DNA of 64,000 nucleotides from Neoarius graeffei (taxonomy: Eukaryota > Chordata > Actinopteri > Siluriformes > Ariidae). Below the pieces are notes generated by a model. The model was not told the origin of the DNA. It saw only the letters and a list, made by a program, of their open reading frames with translations, and did not search any database. Within the stretch, counting starts at the first letter, position 1. The number at the start of each line of letters is the position of its first letter. Below are positions 8,378-57,546 of the stretch, piece after piece. The position numbers and the translations under genes are program-made. The stretch is taken from contig NC_083577.1 of assembly GCF_027579695.1 (NCBI RefSeq), positions 43,750,198 through 43,814,197 on the forward strand, in the 5' to 3' direction.

Positions 8378-9106
8378 CGTAGAAAAAAGCGTCACGATTT
8401 ACAGGTGCATGAAGCCCCTTTACTAGAAGGCCAGTTGGTCTACCTAAGGGTCCACAGCGCTAGAGGTCGGCATAAGATTCAAGACCTCTGGAGTCCGGTC
8501 TCGTACCAGATACTCCGAGCACCTGTTGGACACGGGGCAGTTTACACCATCGCTCCGGTGAGCAACCTGCAAAAAGCCCGAATGGTCCATCGTGACCAGT
8601 TAAAGCCGCAGTTCCCTCTGACCTATGTCACGCAGCAGCCTTCAGTTCTAGCTGCTGCTTATCCCGTTCCCTCTGACCAGCCACCACCTGAGGAGGAGCA
8701 AGTTTTGCTCATAGTCCGTGATTTTCCACCAGCGACGCGTCCTCTCCCGGTTCTTGGATCATCGCCTGGGGCCTCAGGTTCCACTTGTGAGTCCGTTGAC
8801 ATGGGTCCATCTCAGGGCGTTACTCCGTCTCTTGGGGTTGCTGGCTCAGAAAGCACCCCTCTGACACCTGGGGCGGGGCCTGTAGAGGAGGCCTCTGGTT
8901 CCACTACAGCTGGTTGTCATCATACATCACGCTCAACAGCCGGACGGCACTCCAACCTGCACCACCTTCCAAGGTCAGTGGGCCAATTAATCGGGCTACC
9001 CCCTTCGCTCCTGGTTGTGGGATCGGGCCAGAATACCTCTTGCCACTCTAATCCATCATGGGTAGTCGACGGGGCGCCGACTCAAGAAGAGGGGGGTAGA
9101 ATGTGA
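8378..9106 (+). pseudogene. pol: Integrase C-terminal part of element A
   Basis: Downstream of the hAT insertion the integrase frame resumes. It encodes the SH3-like C-terminal domain (GQLVYLRV, GAVYTIAPVSNLQKARMVHRDQLKPQ) and then a long Pro/Ser/Gly-rich tail without chromodomain features. The stop TGA at 9104-9106 lies in the first bases of the 3' LTR, an overlap seen in other compact LTR elements. The open frame that starts further upstream at 8291 includes transposon sequence and is not the real start. Confidence 0.85.
9085..9101 (+). promoter_or_regulatory. Polypurine tract of element A
   Basis: The purine-rich run aagaagaggggggtagaa ends directly at the 3' LTR start (9102). This is where plus-strand DNA synthesis is primed. 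Confidence 0.88.
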
Positions 9107-9825
9107 CTGATTGGGCTACACTCCTCAATCTGAGTCATGATTATTCCAGGTTTGTGGTTGGCGGAGCCACAAGCAAGGGGAGTACTGGCGCGACTTTTAT
9201 TCTGATAAAAAGTCAGTATTGAGTGCTGTAGGATCCTCTCATTCCACTGTGGCGTTGTAGCCAGTGCACCTGTGTGGTGGCTGGTGTGAAGTCTCCCATT
9301 TCAGCTGGGAGTAGTGTTGCCAGGGGTTCTTTGCCTTCAGTGTTCTTTTTGGTCTAGTCGAGGTTTATGATCGAGGTCTGGGCAAGCCTTAGCAGTGGCT
9401 TGAACGACACTGGAACCAGCTGAAGCGAGCGGTCTAATTGTGTCGGTCCCATCAATCAGTGAGCCTGTTTTCATTTAGCATCGTTCAGTATCTGCGGTGG
9501 AATCGTACACTCGCTGCGGCTTCCCACACCGACGGCAAGTTGCTGTTCCGTTGCCATCTTGTGTTGGTCCACATCTGTTTGGGGCAGCCATTCCATCTCT
9601 GCATTGGCTATTCTGTCTAGTCCCCTGTCTATGAGTTGATGTTTATTGTTTTCACAATTAACGCAGGCTATGTTCACGATTATGTATTTGTGTTTTTGTG
9701 TGATTTAATTTACTTACGTCTTGTCTGTGTTTTGATTTACTTTCTGTTGTCTGGTGATTAGTGGCTGGGGTTGTGTAGTGCCTCTGGTGTTGCATGCACC
9801 AGCTAATTGCTCTTGAGTGTTTGTG

Positions 9826-9883
<58 letters not shown>

Positions 9884-10711
9884 ATTAGCATATTAGTAGT
9901 GAGTGGTTGTATGCAGGTGTGGCAACCAGGGCGGCTGCACTCCCTCCTCTGCTGGTCCTGTATGTCCATGTCAACTCTTTGCTAGCTCTCTGCTGCATAG
10001 GATAAGTATTTCGTTTTCCCTCGGTTTGGAGATTTGGTAGCCAACATTGTTGACTATTACCCTGTGCTCAATCTCTCTTCTCTTTCTTTGGGCAGGTACT
10101 GGGAGCTCTGTCCAGAGCAGCCGGTCTTCAGGTGGTGGAAGTCCTTCAAGTTTCCTTCGCTGCATGCACAGTTGGTGATTTTTATATTCTCTTGCAGTGC
10201 TTATTTGCTTAATTTGTGTTTATTCTTTCACGTGTGGTGTTTTCAGGGTCTCTGCTGTCCCTTTCCTCCATGCTGCCTGTGGTAAGCCCCAACTCTGATC
10301 CTAGCTCGTTATTCTTCTTACCCCTTTCTAATAGCAATATAACAGCAGAGAGCAGCCTTGTCCCCAGTGTGCCACGTGCGTATGTCGCCTGGCCCCCTCT
10401 GTTCCCATCCCCCCCCCTTTGTTGAATGGGCCATATGCGCCCTGGGGTGTTATGGTGATGCCCCTGTATATTTTGCACATTGTGCCTGTTGTCAATTTCG
10501 TGAACTGTGAATAGTGTTTTAATTATTGCATAACTTGTGATTTTAATAAATATGATTGTGAACATATCTCTGGCCTAAGAGTGTCTTTCGAACCTGTGTC
10601 CTGTTTTTGTAATACATTGGTGTGATATTGAGGTTCCTAGGGGCCTTCCCCCACCCAAGTTGGTGTAGTCAGTCAAATACCAAATTTCTAAACTTAAGTG
10701 CCACTGTTACA
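9102..10711 (+). repeat. 3' LTR of Ty3/gypsy element A
   Basis: Direct repeat of 23-1768, from TGTGAC to GTTACA. It has a longer (TG)n run at about 9829-9882 and lacks about 145 bases present in the 5' LTR after the motif gatgcccctgtat. It is followed by the TSD ctct. Confidence 0.93.
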
Positions 10712-11788
10712 CTCTGGTCCTTTATGACCCACCACTCCTACTTAGATCAAAAGATGCAGGCTATCTGCTGGTACCTCATATAGTGAAGGCTACATCAGGG
10801 GGCAGAGCCTTTTCTTACAAAGCCCCACAGTTATGGAACAGCCTTCCAAGTAGTGTTCAGGACTCAGACACAGTCTCAGCATTAAAGTCTAGGCTGAAAA
10901 CATTTCTATTTAGTCAAGCCTTTTGTTAACTTTATTAGGTAAAGGAGATGATCTGGAGGGTCCTCAGGCATAGAGTGTTTTGGTAAGCTGGGATGTATGG
11001 ATGCTGTCAGTCCCTCACTCACTTGAGTTTGTTGATGGTGCAGCGGCTGGCTGCTTTATGTCTCGGGGCGCCCTCATGTCTGTGTTACCTTCTGGCTCTC
11101 CCCTTTTAGTTATGCTGTCATAGTTAGTTTTGCCAGAGTCCCTGCTTGCACTCAGTACAAAATGTATACTGTTCCTTCTCATCAGGTGACACTGGGCATA
11201 CCTAACAACCTATTTTCTCTCTCTCCCCCCCGTCCCTCTGAGTTACAGGTCAATCCTGAGATCGAGATGCTGACCTCTTCTGCTCCTCGGACCTGCCTGA
11301 TCCATCCTGAAGCCCTACGTCTGGCTGGAGTCTCATCACATCGCTTGCGTGGAGGACGGCCCCATATGGACAGTTGAAAGTCACACTTGGAAGATGCTCT
11401 GGACACTTACAGTAATGCTTTTATGACTGAGTACTACAGTTGACTTGCTAACTTTAGGACTGCATTTGTTACGAACAGATTTGCACTCAAGTTTCCATCA
11501 ATGAAGAGTTTATAACTTCAGCAAAACAGACTTCATGTTAAAACTTTAAAAATGTTAGAATCACACTGTTATCACCCAAATGAGGATGGGTTCCCTTTTG
11601 AGTCTGGTTCCTCTCAAGGTTTCTTCTTCATGTCGTCTGAGGAAGTTTTTCCTTGCCACTGTCACTACAGGCTTGCTCATTGGGGATAGATTAGGGATAA
11701 ATTAGCTCATGTTTAAAGTCATTAAAATTCTGTCAAGCTGCTTTGTGACAATGTCTATTGTTAAAATCGCTATAAAAATAAACTTGAC
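10712..11788 (+). mobile_element. L2-like LINE, 3' end (host of element A)
   Basis: The beginning translates to a typical end of a non-LTR reverse transcriptase (LWNSLPSSVQDSDTVSALK, then RLKTFLFSQAF). The tail from about 11590 (ctggttcctctcaaggtttc, gaggaagtttttccttgcca, ending aaaaataaacttgactt) is the 3' end I associate with fish L2-type LINEs. The family name is from memory. Element A inserted at its start; bases 1-22 of the window should be the other side. Confidence 0.7.
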
Positions 11789-24815: not shown

Positions 24816-26576
24816 CCCCGATAGCAGAGGGTCGTTGAAACGACGTAGAGTTTTGGTCAGAATGGTCGGTTTCCGTCGTACGTCAGAAAATCAACGTTGA
24901 AACGGCGCCGTGAAACGTCGATTTCTCCGCCGTCTGAGAGGGTCGATTTATCACCGTTGAATCAACGTGGGTAAAGGTTGATCTGTCGACCGTCAGAGAA
25001 GGTTGAATATACGACGTTGAACCATCGTCACTTTTGCCGGCCAGTTTTCAACATTGGTAGGATGAGCAACTGGCCCGTAGCCAGGGGGGATCGGAGGGTT
25101 CGTTCGATCCCCCGCCCCCCCCGCGACACCGCACCCCGGACACACACGCCTCAAGATTACTCAAGATTTATTCATTTGTTCATGTCCGATGAATATACAT
25201 TGATTCACATTTAAATTTACAATATCAAATCCAGACTAATCAAAAAAGAAAAGTAGACTAAGTGAGGACGAGTTAGAAAAACGGGTTCATTTCTCCTATG
25301 TTTATGTTTACACGTTTTGTTCAGACTGCTTTACACCCCAATCCAGTGGGTGGCGGTAATGCCCCCATTAGACCCCTTTCACTGACGTCACCCGAAACCG
25401 GAAGTAAACAAACCCTGCGCCACATTGGAAGACCAACAAACTCGTGATTTGGGGGAAATAACGGCAGCGCGCGGTATGTGAACCCACGAGGCACTTGGTT
25501 CATCAAAAACCTACAATGGTAAACTTTTGTGCTGTGTTAGGGTTCTAACAAAGCTGATGGGAAAGGTGAAAAGAAGTCTTTCTACAGAATACCAGCTGTG
25601 ATTGAGACACAAGCAAACTAAGGAGCTTTCTGCCAGGAGACAGAGAGAGGATTTAGCTGCTTTATGCAGAGCGGATCTGAATACTTCAAGTCTATTTTGT
25701 TACTGGTAAGTCACTAGGCTAGAGTGTTGTAGAACATTTTTTTAAATGTTTACTGAATAAAAACATCCTTAATTTTATCAAATATTCTCTACTCTATATT
25801 TCATTTCTTTCTTTTGTTTTAATTTTCCTCCCTCCATCCCTCTTTGGATTTTAAATATAGTTTTTCCCCATGTCCAAATAATGAGGTAGGGTGGCATTTA
25901 GAAACCCATAGCCTACTGCTGACTTTCTTTATCAATGCTGCATCAAATTAATTTTGGTTATGTTTTTCTGTTTCCATGTACAGGTCTGCGCCGCAGGAGG
26001 AATAGGCCACAATTATAAATAAATCATAAAATGTTTCTAAGAACTTGTTCAAGTGTGTTCTGTTCCTTATAAATGTTAAAAGTTATGCCTCATTAGATAG
26101 CTTGACAAACATTAGGAGAGGTGCATTGTTGCGTGCATTTTTATATCCTGTTGTACATTAAACAGGATGTAGCCTACGCACATTGATATAAATTAAGTTT
26201 CACTTTTATGGTTGAAGTATGCATGTGTGTGTTCATCCTAGGCAAGAGCCCCGATGCTTTATTGTTAGCTAGTTTAATTTAGCCTGTTTTGCTTATTTTG
26301 TAGCCTTCCTGTTGTACATAAAACAGGAAGTAAAGTTGGATGAATCATCGCCGAAAATTCAACTATAAATCGACCGAAATACGTAGTTGAATAAAGGGTG
26401 AAAGGGGGTCTATTCTCTGTCGACCACCAGCCACTTTTCAACGTCGTTTCAACGGAAACTCGTATGAGCAAAGCGGTGTTGAATCAACGTCGGTGATCGA
26501 CGGTGATTCGACGGCGTATAGGTCGAAGAACATGCCGATGATTTCACGTCGAATCAACGACCCTCTGCTATCTGGG
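24816..26576 (+). mobile_element. ISL2EU-like transposon, copy a, inside Tc1
   Basis: The ends are ccccgatagcagagggtcgt and, inverted, cccagatagcagagggtcgt. It is flanked by the dinucleotide ag on both sides, a 2-bp TSD as known for ISL2EU. Both subterminal 250-bp zones are filled with copies of gttgaa/cgacg words in alternating orientation. A THAP exon lies at 25516. A near-identical inverted copy is at 36195-37938. Confidence 0.72.
25516..25705 (+). pseudogene. THAP-domain first exon, copy a
   Basis: From ATG 25516 the frame starts MVNFCAVL and, after a small indel, continues with KKSFYRIPAVIETQ and LSARRQREDLAALCRADL, the zinc-binding DNA-recognition fold of THAP transposases. The exon ends at a GTAAGT donor (25706). 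The reading frame is broken, so this is a relic. Confidence 0.65.
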
Positions 26577-36194: not shown

Positions 36195-37938
36195 CCCAGA
36201 TAGCAGAGGGTCGTTGATTCGATGTGGAATCATCGGCATGTTCTTCGACCTATATGCCGTCGAATCACCGTCGATCACCGGCGTTGATTCAACACCGCTT
36301 TGCTCATACGAGTTTCCGTTGAAACGACATTGAGAAGTGGCTGGTGGTCGACAGAGAATAGACCCCCTTTCACCCTTTATTCAACTATGGATTTCGGTCG
36401 ATTTATAGTTGAATTTTCGGCGATGATTCATCCAACTTTACTTCCTGTTTTATGTACAACAGGAAGGCTACAAATTAAGCAAAACAGGCTAAATTAAACT
36501 AGCTAACAATAAAGCATCGGGGCTCTTGCCTAGGATGAACACACACATGCATACTTCAACCATGAAAGTGAAACTTAATTTATATCAGTGTGCGTAGGCT
36601 ACGTCCTGTTTTATGTACAACAGGATATAAAAATGCATGCAACAATTCACCTCTCCTAATGTTTGTCAAGCTATCTAATGAGGCATAACTTTTAACATTT
36701 ATAAGGAACAGAACACACTTGAACAAGTTCTTAGAAACATTTTATGATTTATTTATAATTGTGGCCTATTCCTCCTGCGGCGCAGACCTGTACATGGAAA
36801 CAGAAAAACATAACCAAAATTAATTTGATGCAGCATTGATAAAGAAAGTCAGCAGTAGGCTATGGGTTTCTAAATGCCACCCTACCTCATTATTTGGACA
36901 TGGGGAAAAACTATATTTAAAATCCAAAGAGGGATGGAGGGAGGAAAATTAAAACAAAAGAAAGAAATGAAATGTAGAGTAGAGAATATTTGATAAAATT
37001 ATGTTTTTATTCAGTAAACATTTAAAAAAATGTTCTACAACACTCTAGCCTAGTGACTTACCAGTATAGACTTGAAGTATTCAGATCCGCTCTGCATAAA
37101 GCAGCTAAATCCTCTCTCTGTCTCCCGGCAGAAAGCTCCTTGGTTTGCTTGTGTCTCAATCACAGCTGGTATTCTGTAGAAAGACTTCTTTTCACCTTTC
37201 CCATCAGCTTTGTTAGAACCCTAACACAGCACAAAAGTTTACCATTGTAGGTTTATGATGAACCAAGTGCCTCGTGGGTATACCGCGCGCTGCCGTTATT
37301 TCCCCCAAATCACGAGTTTGTTGGTCTTCCAATGTGGCGCAGGGTTTGTTTACTTCCGGTTTCGGGTGACGTCAGTGAAAGGGGTCTAATGGGGGCATTA
37401 CCGCCACCCACTGGATTGGGGTGTAAAGCAGTCTGAACAAAACGTGTAAACATAAACATAGGAGAAATGAACCCATTTTTCTAACTCGTCCTCACTTAGT
37501 CTACTTTTCTTTTTTGATTAGTCTGGATTTGATATTGTAAATTTAAATGTGAATCAATGTATATTCATCGGACATGAACAAATGAATAAATCTTGAGTAA
37601 TCTTGAGGCGTGTGTGTCCGGGGTGCGGTGTCGCGGGGGGGGGGGATCGAACGAACCCTCCGATCCCCCCTGGCTATGGGCCAGTTGCTCATCCTACCAA
37701 TGTTGAAAACTGGCCGGCAAAAGTGACGATGGTTCAACGTCGTATATTCAACCTTCTCTGACGGTCGACAGATCAACCTTTACCCACGTTGATTCAACGG
37801 TGATAAATCGACCCTCTCAGACGGCGGAGAAATCGACGTTTCACGGCGCCGTTTCAACGTTGATTTTCTGACGTACGACGGAAACCGACCATTCTGACCA
37901 AAACTCTACGTTGTTTCAACGACCCTCTGCTATCGGGA
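36195..37938 (-). mobile_element. ISL2EU-like transposon, copy b, in right LTR
   Basis: Inverted near-copy of 24816-26576. It is flanked by the 2-bp TSD ac; the left LTR shows the empty site (ttctaccatttc near 24282). The ends are cccagatagcagagggtcgt and, inverted, tcccgatagcagagggtcgt. Confidence 0.75.
37062..37245 (-). pseudogene. THAP-domain first exon, copy b
   Basis: ATG at 37245 on the minus strand, MVNFCAVL, then the same THAP segment as copy a, ending at a GTAAGT donor (37061). It has the same frame break, so the break was probably already in the source copy. Confidence 0.65.
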
Positions 37939-44640: not shown

Positions 44641-44668
44641 TAAAAACCCATCACCATACACATACACG

Positions 44669-45323
44669 CCAACGTCCGAGGTTCCGGAGCGCACTCCGGC
44701 TTGCTCCAGGAGTGCTCCGGCCGAGGATCCCCTCAAATTAAGCAGCGCGTGCCGGCTTGCTCCCGGAGTGCTCCGGCCGAGGTTCCGGAGCGTGCTCTGG
44801 CTTGCTCCAGGAGTGCTCCGGCCGAGGTTACAGAGCACGCTCCGGCTTGCTCCGGAGCAAGCCGGAGCGCGCTGCTTAATTTGAGGGCAACCTCGGCCGG
44901 AGTGTGCTCCGGAACCTTGGCCGGAGCAAGCCGGCGCGCGCTGCTTAATTTGAGGGGAACCTCGGCCGGAGCACTCCGGGAGCAAGCCGGCGCACGCTGC
45001 TTAATTTGAGGGCAACCTCGGCCGGAGTGTGCTCCAGAACCTCGGCCGGAGCACTCCGGGAGCAAGCCGGCGCACGCTGCTTAATTTGAGGGGAACCTCG
45101 GCCGGAGCACTCCGGGAGCAAGCCGGCACGTGCTGCTTAATTAGAGGGCAACCTCAGCCGGAGTGTGCTCCGGAACCTCGGCCGGAGCACTCCGGGAGCA
45201 AGCCGGCACGCGCTGCTTAATTTGAGGAGAACCTTGGCCGGAGCACTCCAGGAGCAAGCCGGTGCGCGCTGCTTAATTTGAGGGAGAGCAAGCCGGAGCG
45301 CGCTCCGGAACCTCGGACGTTGG
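44669..45323. repeat. GC-rich inverted tandem array
   Basis: Units of about 55-95 bases combine ggccggagcactccgggagc and gcgctgcttaatttgaggg. The left part (44669-44847) holds them in one orientation and the right part (44849-45323) in the other, with a palindromic centre ccggcttgctccggagcaag at about 44839-44860. The outer edges, gtccgaggttccggagcgc and its inverse, also match. It could form large cruciforms. Open frames in it are by-products of the repeat. Confidence 0.88.
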
Positions 45324-46083
45324 CTCCAGCAGCTATTTATACTGGATCCGGTGTAAATAGCTGCCGGATCATAATTACAGTAAACTAGTAAATACAGTAA
45401 AGGAAAAACTTGAGACTGAAAGGTTTTAACAGTCATCCAAATGACTAAACGTAAACATTGCTACAGTAACATACCAGCTACTTGTTGACATTAGCTAGTC
45501 AACAATAGCTACTACAGAAGAACAAAGAGGTTACAATGGGTTATTTTAGCCTATTTGGTTACACACTCGCCGCCACAGAATGTTAACAGCAATGTAATGC
45601 CTTTTCTGGCTAATTTTATTTGTCTTACCTCCAACAAAGTGGTCACTACACAAGCGTTGGTATGCCGAGGGCTGCCAATCTGTTAATGTCTGCTATCCAT
45701 CTTCTCCGTCGGGATCCGATAAAATGATAAACCTTGCCTTGTTTGTTGATGGTTACTACATCCAGGTGCACAACAATATAGTGGCATGATGGAAGTCTTG
45801 CTGAAAGTAAAAACTAACTTTGCTGCCGTTCCTCAATGTTGGCTGTGGTAAACTACTGGTAGTACACGTCCAAAATGGCGGCCGCGTTTGTCGTGACGTC
45901 ACGTGAAAAGGGTCCATTGAGACGTCTACATTTTATTTTTTATTGTAGTCTACTTGACTTAATACAACTTGCGACATACATACTTATTTTACTGTAACGT
46001 ACTTTACTCTTTCTATTTCAGCTTTGGTTCAATTAATGTGCTATAAAAACAATGAATGGAGAAACAATGAATGAAGGCTGCAC

Positions 46084-55531: not shown

Positions 55532-56140
55532 TATTATAAGAAATTATTAAATGATAACAGAAATAATATCAAAGTAATTTGGAGCACTTTGAACAGTATT
55601 ATAAAAAATGGGTCAGGATATATAAATTATCCAAGGTACTTTCTTAATAATGACAAAGATGAATATAATATGGATGTGGTAGTTAATAGTTTCAACCATT
55701 ACTTTGTAAACATAGGACCAACCTTAGCAGAACTAATCCCGGATCCAGGAACATCTGCTGAAAATCTGGGCAATTTGATAGATAATAATTCTTCTTCAAT
55801 GTTCCTTACAGCAGTGGAAGAAAAAGAAATTGTTGATATTGTTGGGAAATGTACGAACAAAAAAATCTACTGACTGTGATGACATTGACATGATGATACT
55901 GAAAAATTTTATTGATGGAATATCCAAACCATTCACATATATATGCAATTTGTCATTTCTAACTGGTACATTTCCAAGCAGAATGAAAACAGCAAAAGTC
56001 ATTCCTCTGTACAAATCTGGGAGCAAACACCACTTCACAAACTACAGACCTGTCTCACTACTTTCACAATTCTCCAAAATTCTCGAAAAGCTTTTCAATA
56101 ACCAATTGGATAAATTTATTGACAAACATAAACTACTTAG

Positions 56141-56769
56141 TGTCATGGTCCTACCTATGGGTTTCCTCTCTTCAGGTAACATCTCCACTCCTCTCCACTC
56201 AGCATTACCGGCCACGCCCGCATACACTTCCTCTTATTAACTCTCAGTGGCTGTCATTGGCTGTTGCTTATCACCTGCTCCTCCCCTGTGTGTATTTAAG
56301 CTGCTGTCCTCCCAAGCTTCAGTGTCAGATCGTCTTCTAGGTGTCAACTCTGTCAACTCTTCAGTCCTGGTAACCTGACCCTGCATTTCTGTCCCTTATC
56401 TTGCTACCTGATCTGTGACTCTGTGTTCCAGCCTGTTCCCTACTCCTGCCTGTTGTGCTGTCCTGTCTGTCTGCTGAGGGACTTCTCACTGGGAGACTGC
56501 CTGAACACCTAGTGCCATCAGCTTACAGCCTCCCTACTCTGACAACACCTGATCCTGTCTGATCTTTGAAGCTAAGCAGGGTCGAGCCTGGCCAGTGCTT
56601 GGATGGGAGACTGCAGACATCACCACCATACTCCCACCAGCCATTCCTGCCTTTCAGTCCTCCTGCCACTGAACTTCACACATGCACATCCTCCCAACTC
56701 CCTTTCCCCTGTTATCAATAAAACAACATTTAACTTGTGCTCTTGGGTCCTCGTCTGTTTGTCCTGACA
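56141..56769 (+). mobile_element. Solo LTR containing 5S rRNA-derived sequence
   Basis: It starts TGTCATGGTCC and ends CCTGACA, with the 5-bp TSD cttag at 56136-56140 and 56770-56774. A TATA-like tatttaag lies near 56294 and AATAAA near 56717, in the order expected for U3-R-U5 on the plus strand. The end types match a Ty3/gypsy LTR family of fish (memory). It interrupts the LINE reverse transcriptase, so it is younger than the LINE copy. Confidence 0.85.
56480..56614 (+). other. 5S rRNA-derived segment, head-to-tail partial copies, in LTR
   Basis: 56521-56614 aligns by eye with the first ~94 bases of vertebrate 5S rRNA. The internal promoter part is best kept: gaagctaagcagggtcgagc (A box) and cttggatgggagactgc (C box). 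The 45 bases before it (56480-56524) resemble the 3' end of 5S, starting with gggagactgcctg and running into gcttac. So the 3' end of one copy is joined to the 5' part of another, with tgggagactgc at both 56490 and 56604. It is not a functional 5S gene: it is broken up and no T-run terminator follows inside the LTR. Confidence 0.8.
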
Positions 56770-57546
56770 CTTAGTGACCATCAATATGGATTTAGAGCAC
56801 ATAGATCAACATCACTGGCTTTAATAGAATTGGTTGAAGAAATCACCAATTCCATAGAGCAGAAAAAACATGCAGTTGGAATATTCATTGATTTAAAGAA
56901 AGCATTTGATACAATAAATCATGGCATTAATAAAAAAACTGGAACGATATGGCATCAGGGGTATAGTTTTAAACTGGGTTAAAAGCTATTTAAGTAACAG
57001 GAGACAGTTTGTGAAGCTGGGAGATTGCTCTTCCTCATGTTTGGACATAACTTGTGGTGTTCCCCAGGGGTCAGTGTTAGGACCAAAGTTTTTTATACTA
57101 TATATCAACAACATATGTAGTGTATCTAAAGTAATGAAGCTTGTCTTGTTTGCGGACGATACAAATGTCCTCTTTTCTGGTGATAATTTAATGGAACTTT
57201 TGCAGGAGATTACAACAGAAATAAGTGAATTAATAACAGTTCAACAGTAACAAATTATCATTAAACTTGAATAAATCCAAAGTAATATTATTTGGTAACA
57301 ACAAAACAAACACACAAATATTCAAATAGATGGGGTTATTATAGAAAGAGTTAAGGAAATCAAATTTCTTGGAACAACTATTGATGAAAAACTCAGCTGG
57401 AAACCACATATAAAAAAAAACGTACAATCCAAAGTATCAATAAGTATTGCAATATTAAACAAAGTTAAACAGTTTCTAGATCACAATTCACTCCGGATTC
57501 TTTACTGTTCCCTGGTTTCACCTTATTTAAGTTACTGTGCAGAGGT

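Follow-up and report, generated by a model that had tools for sequence, protein, structure and literature searches.

Pieces of 5S rRNA sequence are known from the long terminal repeats (LTRs) of short non-coding retrotransposons. In the plant TRIM element Cassandra, which is non-coding and shorter than 1 kb, the 5S-derived region of the LTR consists of conserved boxes A, IE, and C separated by short variable stretches, and a Pol III promoter stands in place of the Pol II promoter (excerpts of PMC10853983 and PMC10886601). According to the excerpts of Kojima 2024 (PMC10886601), 5S or tRNA parts also occur in the LTRs of the short non-coding elements Ajax and Helenus. Ajax, a nemertean TRIM with 5S sequence in its LTR and thus an animal precedent, is a non-autonomous element of 421-434 bp primed by tRNA-Leu; both Ajax and TRIMp3 have animal LTRs with a 5S part that spans the three boxes, and 5-bp target site duplications. 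The same excerpts reason that autonomous partners of TRIMp3 have to rely on a Pol II promoter and that long stretches of LTR sequence are unlikely to be common to the two, and they describe the 5S-headed SINEs of the SINE3 class, in which the promoter half is 5S-derived (PMC10886601). Among the titles and abstract openings listed in our searches, a scope that most subscription papers and Repbase fall outside, there was no coding LTR element with 5S sequence in its LTR.

The LTR analysed here shares with Cassandra, Ajax, and TRIMp3 the presence of the 5S A box, IE, and C box, but it does not belong to a short (about 1 kb or less) non-coding element. Unlike Cassandra, the present elements code for gag-pol, carry Pol II-type signals, and have a predicted self-priming start upstream of the 5S segment; unlike Ajax, they are about 5.7 kb long and coding, possess a self-priming site, and in many copies show a tail-to-head join of 5S pieces. 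The sequence-only reading of this DNA had suggested an independent animal case of a Cassandra-like capture. The separation from Cassandra stands on structural grounds, whereas priority among animals belongs to Ajax, as excerpts of PMC10886601 describe it.

The window, by which we mean the whole analysed stretch of 64,000 nucleotides from Neoarius graeffei, contains a solo LTR with the ends TGTCA...TGACA and the target duplication CTTAG on both sides (Table 1). The LTR splits the reverse transcriptase frame of a LINE (window 55901-57000 outside the LTR), and this frame becomes continuous once the LTR and one copy of CTTAG are removed. The LTR ends, both copies of the duplication, and the restored LINE frame all agree with the solo LTR proposed earlier, and the TATA-like and AATAAA signals named with it are present. 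Besides the window copy, an exact 5-bp repeat beside the matched ends was found in two of 39 other LTR copies, most of which belong to full elements, where the two flanks differ. Other repeats were noticed elsewhere in the window: a direct repeat pair at 23-1383 and 9102-10469 (continuing at 1521-1773 and 10464-10717), 96% identical and about 9 kb apart, which could represent either the LTRs of another element or a part of it that was duplicated; an inverted repeat pair of about 1.76 kb at 24817-26576 and 36195-37937, 98% identical; and short internal repeats at 44668-45324 that match themselves on both strands.

Table 1. Features of the solo LTR in window coordinates; the limits of the 5S boxes, here and in the host gene, are those that we take to be standard
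Feature	Position	Strand	Remark
TSD CTTAG, left copy	56136..56140	.	
Solo LTR, Ty3/Gypsy chromodomain element	56141..56769	+	at least 39 other LTR copies in the genome, 94-96% identical
TATTTAA, Pol II TATA-like box	56293..56299	+	LTR position 153
GTCAGATCGT, inferred 5' end of R (self-priming)	56324..56333	+	complementary to the PBS just after the 5' LTR of full copies
5S rRNA 3'-end piece (5S ~83 to end), tail	56490..56520	+	spacerless fusion to head
5S rRNA positions 1-94, head	56521..56614	+	
AA, site of recurrent AA->CT; CT completes the inverted repeat CTGCT-A-AGCAG	56569..56570	+	CT in 9/40 copies
5S box A (host 51-61)	56571..56581	+	exact in window copy
5S intermediate element, IE (host 66-71)	56586..56591	+	
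5S box C (host 78-92)	56598..56612	+	one difference from host in window copy
AATAAA poly(A) signal	56717..56722	+	
TSD CTTAG, right copy	56770..56774	.	

The 5S head aligns without gaps to the 5S genes of the same genome, with 76 of 94 positions identical, and its alignment score of 135 lies far above the maximum of 73 observed in 2000 dinucleotide shuffles. In a 1-kb search the Rfam model RF00001 matched 56521-56619 with 25.7 bits (E 0.008), and at its gathering score, 38, this model had no match anywhere in the whole window. Nineteen of 20 other LTR copies were matched as well, the best of them with 36.4 bits and all below the cut-off, and copy L028 gave no match at E up to 1; thus, no scored LTR copy has the above-gathering match expected of a 5S rRNA gene. 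The 5S tail has a modest score in the window copy (39, a value reached by 4 of 2000 shuffles) and a clear one in the sister copy L097 (53, where 5000 shuffles gave at most 41). A chance similarity is rejected by the shuffle scores of the head in the window copy and of the tail in L097. No spacer separates the tail from the head, which share the letters GCTT at their join. The 11-bp word TGGGAGACTGC occurs at both ends of the 5S part, its copies being 114 bp apart. In these respects (the 5' part of about 94 bases, the tail directly before the head, and the repeated word) the initial description was accurate, and only the extent of the 3'-end piece, given there as 56480-56524, had to be reduced to the tail limits in Table 1.

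To find other copies, the genome (2.34 Gb, 38 contigs) was searched with the LTR, and the 40 top whole-LTR matches, the window copy among them, were taken as the family set (40 scored of 1779 first-look candidates). The 5S segment stands at the same place in all 40 LTR copies, including the paired LTRs of eight elements, with a 7-nt loss in L028; a single later insertion into the window copy is thereby rejected. A 34-base pattern of the control region, which the host 5S genes do not fit, has 435 exact matches in the genome, compared with none for the reversed control. Two 20-base words of the 5S part occur exactly at 39 and 49 places, respectively; for each word the first 20 places were made into loci, some of which are copies already in the family set, and all 40 loci match the window LTR, six being clearly divergent (L061, L062, L069, L077, L092, and L097). 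Some 5S-word pairs are 2.7-3.9 kb apart (for example L109/L110, L111/L112, and L115/L116) and possibly mark elements that carry LTRs of this kind but are shorter through internal deletion. Eighteen further sister copies, nine of them aligned, were chosen from the matches to the 34-base pattern. They display the same plan, with TATTTAA exact in 13, GTCAGAT in 15, and AATAAA in 15 of the 18. The R part of the LTR is shortened, lengthened, or rearranged among them and the 5S tail is absent from 11, but the 5S head is retained.

Relatives lacking the 5S segment were sought with a word just downstream of it, which has 708 exact places, 100 of them listed. The first 30 are all on one contig; 14 of these adjoin an exact 34-base match, as judged by eye, and one (L063) was already in the set. 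The other 15 and five from the next contig, all without an exact control-region match, were taken, and two partly masked ones were set aside. A 5S-like piece with a score of 90-158 is present in all 18 unmasked places, although the 5' part is missing from L130, most of box C from L131, and box A from L134. Since no 5S-less relative was found among these 18 places picked by a word outside 5S, the capture is probably older than this element group. In the 40 copies and in the sister copies shown, 5S is flanked on both sides by LTR sequence, and no pre-insertion LTR occurs among the copies and sister copies examined. Searches for two 5S words in viral contigs and for one LTR word in genome contigs gave no matches, which says little, these collections being viral or prokaryotic. 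The LTR of the window is thus a member of a large group of coding chromodomain Ty3/Gypsy elements with a 5S-derived segment at a fixed place, and this segment is common to divergent subfamilies.

In the eight elements with both LTRs in the family set, the LTR starts are 5.0-5.1 kb apart in seven and 7.9 kb apart in the eighth, the former spacing giving an element length of about 5.7 kb. Pieces of several copies, searched separately against Pfam, revealed gag-type domains (Ty3_capsid, DUF4939, and Retrotrans_gag) and pol-type domains (aspartyl protease, RVT_1, RNase H, Integrase_H2C2, rve, SH3_Tf2-1, and Chromo) in the interior, the protease matches being below the Pfam cut-off and gag above it in one copy only. 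Judged by this domain content, the parent element is a coding chromodomain Ty3/Gypsy retrotransposon. The likening of the element to a TRIM such as Cassandra was therefore not borne out, given its full size and an interior with gag, protease, reverse transcriptase, RNase H, and integrase. The Ty3_capsid/DUF4939 gag and the combination of SH3_Tf2-1 and Chromo in the integrase are instead features of the self-priming sushi/Tf1-type chromodomain Ty3/Gypsy elements, which we take to be the appropriate comparison group.

A complement of the primer-binding site (PBS) at the 5' end of the RNA is the layout of self-priming elements such as Tf1 and sushi. The present elements appear to share it: GAACGATCTGACC is located directly after the 5' LTR, and its complement GTCAGATCGT is found at LTR position 184, beginning 31 nt after the start of TATTTAA. 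Pairing at LTR position 183-184 extends over 8-10 nt in 11 of 15 copies of the 5' LTR and over 5-6 nt in two, and the site or its partner is altered in two. On this basis, we predict that the element self-primes and that the 5' end of its Pol II RNA lies near 56322-56324, which would place the 5S segment inside R, about 200 nt downstream. To our knowledge, a 5S control region in R has not been described in the sushi/Tf1-type group, and it is here that the present elements differ.

Comparison with the host gene revealed a strongly uneven conservation of the 5S piece. Identity to host 5S was calculated over 28 of the 30 downstream-word places, with the two masked ones left out, a lost position counted as a difference, and nine rows contributing only the 34-base control region (host 56-89). 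It amounts to 0.93 in box A, 0.92 in IE, and 0.97 in box C, but to 0.77 (62-65) and 0.80 (72-77) between the boxes, and to 0.68 (1-34), 0.67 (35-47), and 0.61 (48-50) before them. The boxes are thus far closer to host 5S than the sequence around them, and this closeness suggests that the 5S piece still does something for the element. Within the family, all three boxes are exact in only 12 of the 40 copies and box A in 20, and no part of the LTR varies more than the control region. The early impression of nearly intact A-box and C-box words holds for the window copy but less so for the family, in which box A lies in this most variable part.

The conservation could in principle reflect either the DNA or the RNA. 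In 5S RNA the strand of box C pairs with letters just after position 94. This partner strand is absent from the head and is available only upstream, in the tail piece, so that a permuted 5S fold may exist in tailed copies. However, among 19 full rows seven are tail-less, and six of these seven retain the core words of boxes A and C and the seventh that of box C alone; conservation therefore follows the DNA boxes better than the 5S RNA fold.

A different picture is observed in the two LTRs of one element. In eight pairs, 47 of 473 sites in 5S 35-94 differ (9.9%), compared with 12 of 520 in the rest of 5S and 72 of 4029 (1.8%) in the rest of the LTR (whole 5S part versus rest of the LTR, Fisher P 3e-11). 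The respective counts in seven further family pairs, partly fetched by words that fix some of the 5S segment, are 28/420, 16/455, and 93/3367. Eight sister-subfamily pairs, which were conditioned on the control region and some of which were chosen for differing listed words, gave 31/754 versus 96/4327 (P 0.0035). Decay of CpG explains part of this hypervariability but is insufficient as the only cause, because the excess remains at non-CpG sites (41/993 pair differences in 5S versus 40/4029 elsewhere), and 18 of 408 sites in 5S 35-94 still differ after removal of CpG and inverted-repeat sites.

Some of the recurrent changes complete inverted repeats, namely AA to CT at 56569-56570, the adjoining TG to CC (in L109), and T to C at 56592. 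In a tree from which 5S was left out, the AA/CT site needs 16 changes to account for 19 CT copies of 64 (24 of these 64 had been fetched by words that fix AA or CT), as compared with 1-5 changes at other non-CpG two-state sites and 4-11 at sites with many CpG rows. In mixed pairs it is not always the 3' LTR that carries CT, since L112/L111 show the opposite arrangement. In one yeast assay system, quasi-palindrome changes arose only under high transcription, as far as the excerpt of PMC3820800 reports, and by this likeness a tie between such changes and transcription is suggestive for the present elements.

Older pairs are no more different in the control region than younger ones (Spearman -0.37, n=8, and 0.19, n=7). 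Divergence there is 0.099 between paired and 0.110 between unpaired LTRs, a ratio of 0.90, versus a ratio of 0.58 elsewhere, which argues that control-region changes are mostly post-integration and seldom passed on. These data fit, weakly, a model in which new changes seldom enter the source lineage; conversion among copies would give the same ratio, and for the eight pairs the source-lineage contrast is zero or less in 3.3% of bootstraps, with a 95% interval (-0.05 to 1.26) that includes zero. Local gene conversion among LTR copies, in place of mutation, would be compatible with any functional reading of the segment and is consistent both with the ratio near 1 and with the lack of relation to pair age; moreover, for 18 of the 41 non-CpG pair differences at least two other copies share the rarer allele. 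Nevertheless, 17 of the 41 carry an allele absent from the other 38 copies, the AA/CT, TG/CC, and T/C changes fit inverted-repeat templating, and conversion from host 5S genes is not supported, the host letters at positions 47, 65, and 73 occurring in 0 of 40 copies and that at position 35 in one of 40. On balance, we regard conversion as an unlikely, if quite conceivable, cause of the hypervariability.

As for the origin of the segment, 47 host 5S genes were scored of 73,561 first-look candidates; in the loci read they are about 0.8 kb or more apart and often in opposite orientation. On contig C21, at ~39.22-39.29 Mb (L051-L060), opposite-facing pairs of host 5S genes ~0.8 kb apart recur every ~4.6 kb over part of the cluster. 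The spacerless join of tail and head, together with the spaced arrangement of the host genes, points to 5S RNA and not to gene arrays as the source. Both sources had been offered in the sequence-only reading; from the above we infer that an RNA-level join is favoured and capture from a tandem 5S array less likely. The 5S piece of the LTR may also go back to an old SINE, no pre-insertion LTR having been found among the copies examined. It has in common with SINE3 the 5S-derived promoter half that excerpts of PMC10886601 describe; it differs in having no recognised LINE tail, in being flanked by LTR sequence, and in being preceded by a 5S 3' end.

We consider it slightly more probable than the sum of its alternatives that the segment was captured as 5S RNA and is kept as a DNA site for TFIIIA/TFIIIC that aids a Pol II LTR in germ cells. 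The capture would predate the split of the subfamilies: while copying the element, the reverse transcriptase may have switched to a 5S RNA, followed it as far as the 5' end, moved on to the 3' end of another 5S RNA, and then returned to the element. The putative TFIIIA/TFIIIC site would most likely keep the LTR in an open or active state in germ cells, among which oocytes contain much TFIIIA, and help the Pol II promoter, which lies about 200 bp upstream. The genomic RNA would be made from the Pol II promoter, since priming is predicted to use the 5' end of that RNA itself, and short Pol III transcripts from 5S may also arise, but not as genomic RNA. An enhancer role of the segment is something that we only infer, and the post-integration excess of changes is compatible with germ-line occupancy or transcription but is no proof of either. 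A more detailed version, which we hold only tentatively and judge rather doubtful as a whole, is that the captured control region, bound by TFIIIA/TFIIIC in germ cells, is a DNA element of the Pol II LTR, that binding or transcription leaves a bounded mutational hotspot, and that broken boxes are purged in mobile lineages.

A Cassandra-like mechanism, with Pol III starting at the 5S part of the LTR and its RNA either serving transposition or giving short sense transcripts, has several points in common with the data. The boxes are conserved islands with variable spacers, as the excerpts of PMC10853983 report for Cassandra, the 5S segment has the same orientation as gag-pol, and TTTT occurs between the 5S start and the LTR end in only seven of 64 copies. 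The last observation means that Pol III could read into the element, although the argument is weak, as TTTT need not occur in 250 bp. On the other hand, the element is ~5.7 kb long and a TATA word stands upstream in most sister copies. In addition, the predicted self-priming 5' end is ~200 nt upstream of 5S, so that a Pol III RNA started there would be without the self-priming sequence; if the element self-primes from a Pol II-started RNA of several kilobases, the 5S region is unlikely to drive the genomic RNA. We therefore find Pol III initiation of this kind improbable.

Less plausible still is a functionless old capture, conserved in appearance by the chance of which half was captured well. 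Broken boxes in many family copies and the AA to CT change beside box A would be expected of such a passenger, but across subfamilies the boxes are 92-97% identical to host 5S and the neighbouring 5S parts 61-80%, the boxes are kept despite an approximately fivefold higher rate of change there between paired LTRs, and the 5S head stayed when other parts of R were rearranged or lost. A role at the RNA level, in which the 5S-like part, perhaps as a circularly permuted 5S of tail and head, adopts a fold within both UTRs (5' and 3') and is bound by TFIIIA or a ribosomal protein in aid of export or translation, appears very unlikely. It would agree with the predicted position of the segment in R, and hence in the genomic RNA, with the presence, in tailed copies, of the strand missing from the head in the tail piece upstream, and with the best of the covariance-model scores; yet all these scores are below the gathering cut-off, tail-less copies retain the boxes, and conservation tracks the DNA boxes rather than the paired halves. 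The binding of TFIIIA/TFIIIC to the LTR DNA remains our preferred explanation.

The published examples considered here place 5S sequence in the LTRs of short non-coding elements; the present group is coding and combines Pol II-type signals with a conserved 5S control region. Comparison of paired LTRs, which record changes after integration, with different elements, which record the source lineage, provides a sequence-only test of which parts of an LTR are needed, and through its recurrent inverted-repeat changes the group lends itself to a test of template-switch mutation in nature. If the proposed explanation is true, sites for Pol III factors can be recruited into ordinary LTR retrotransposons.
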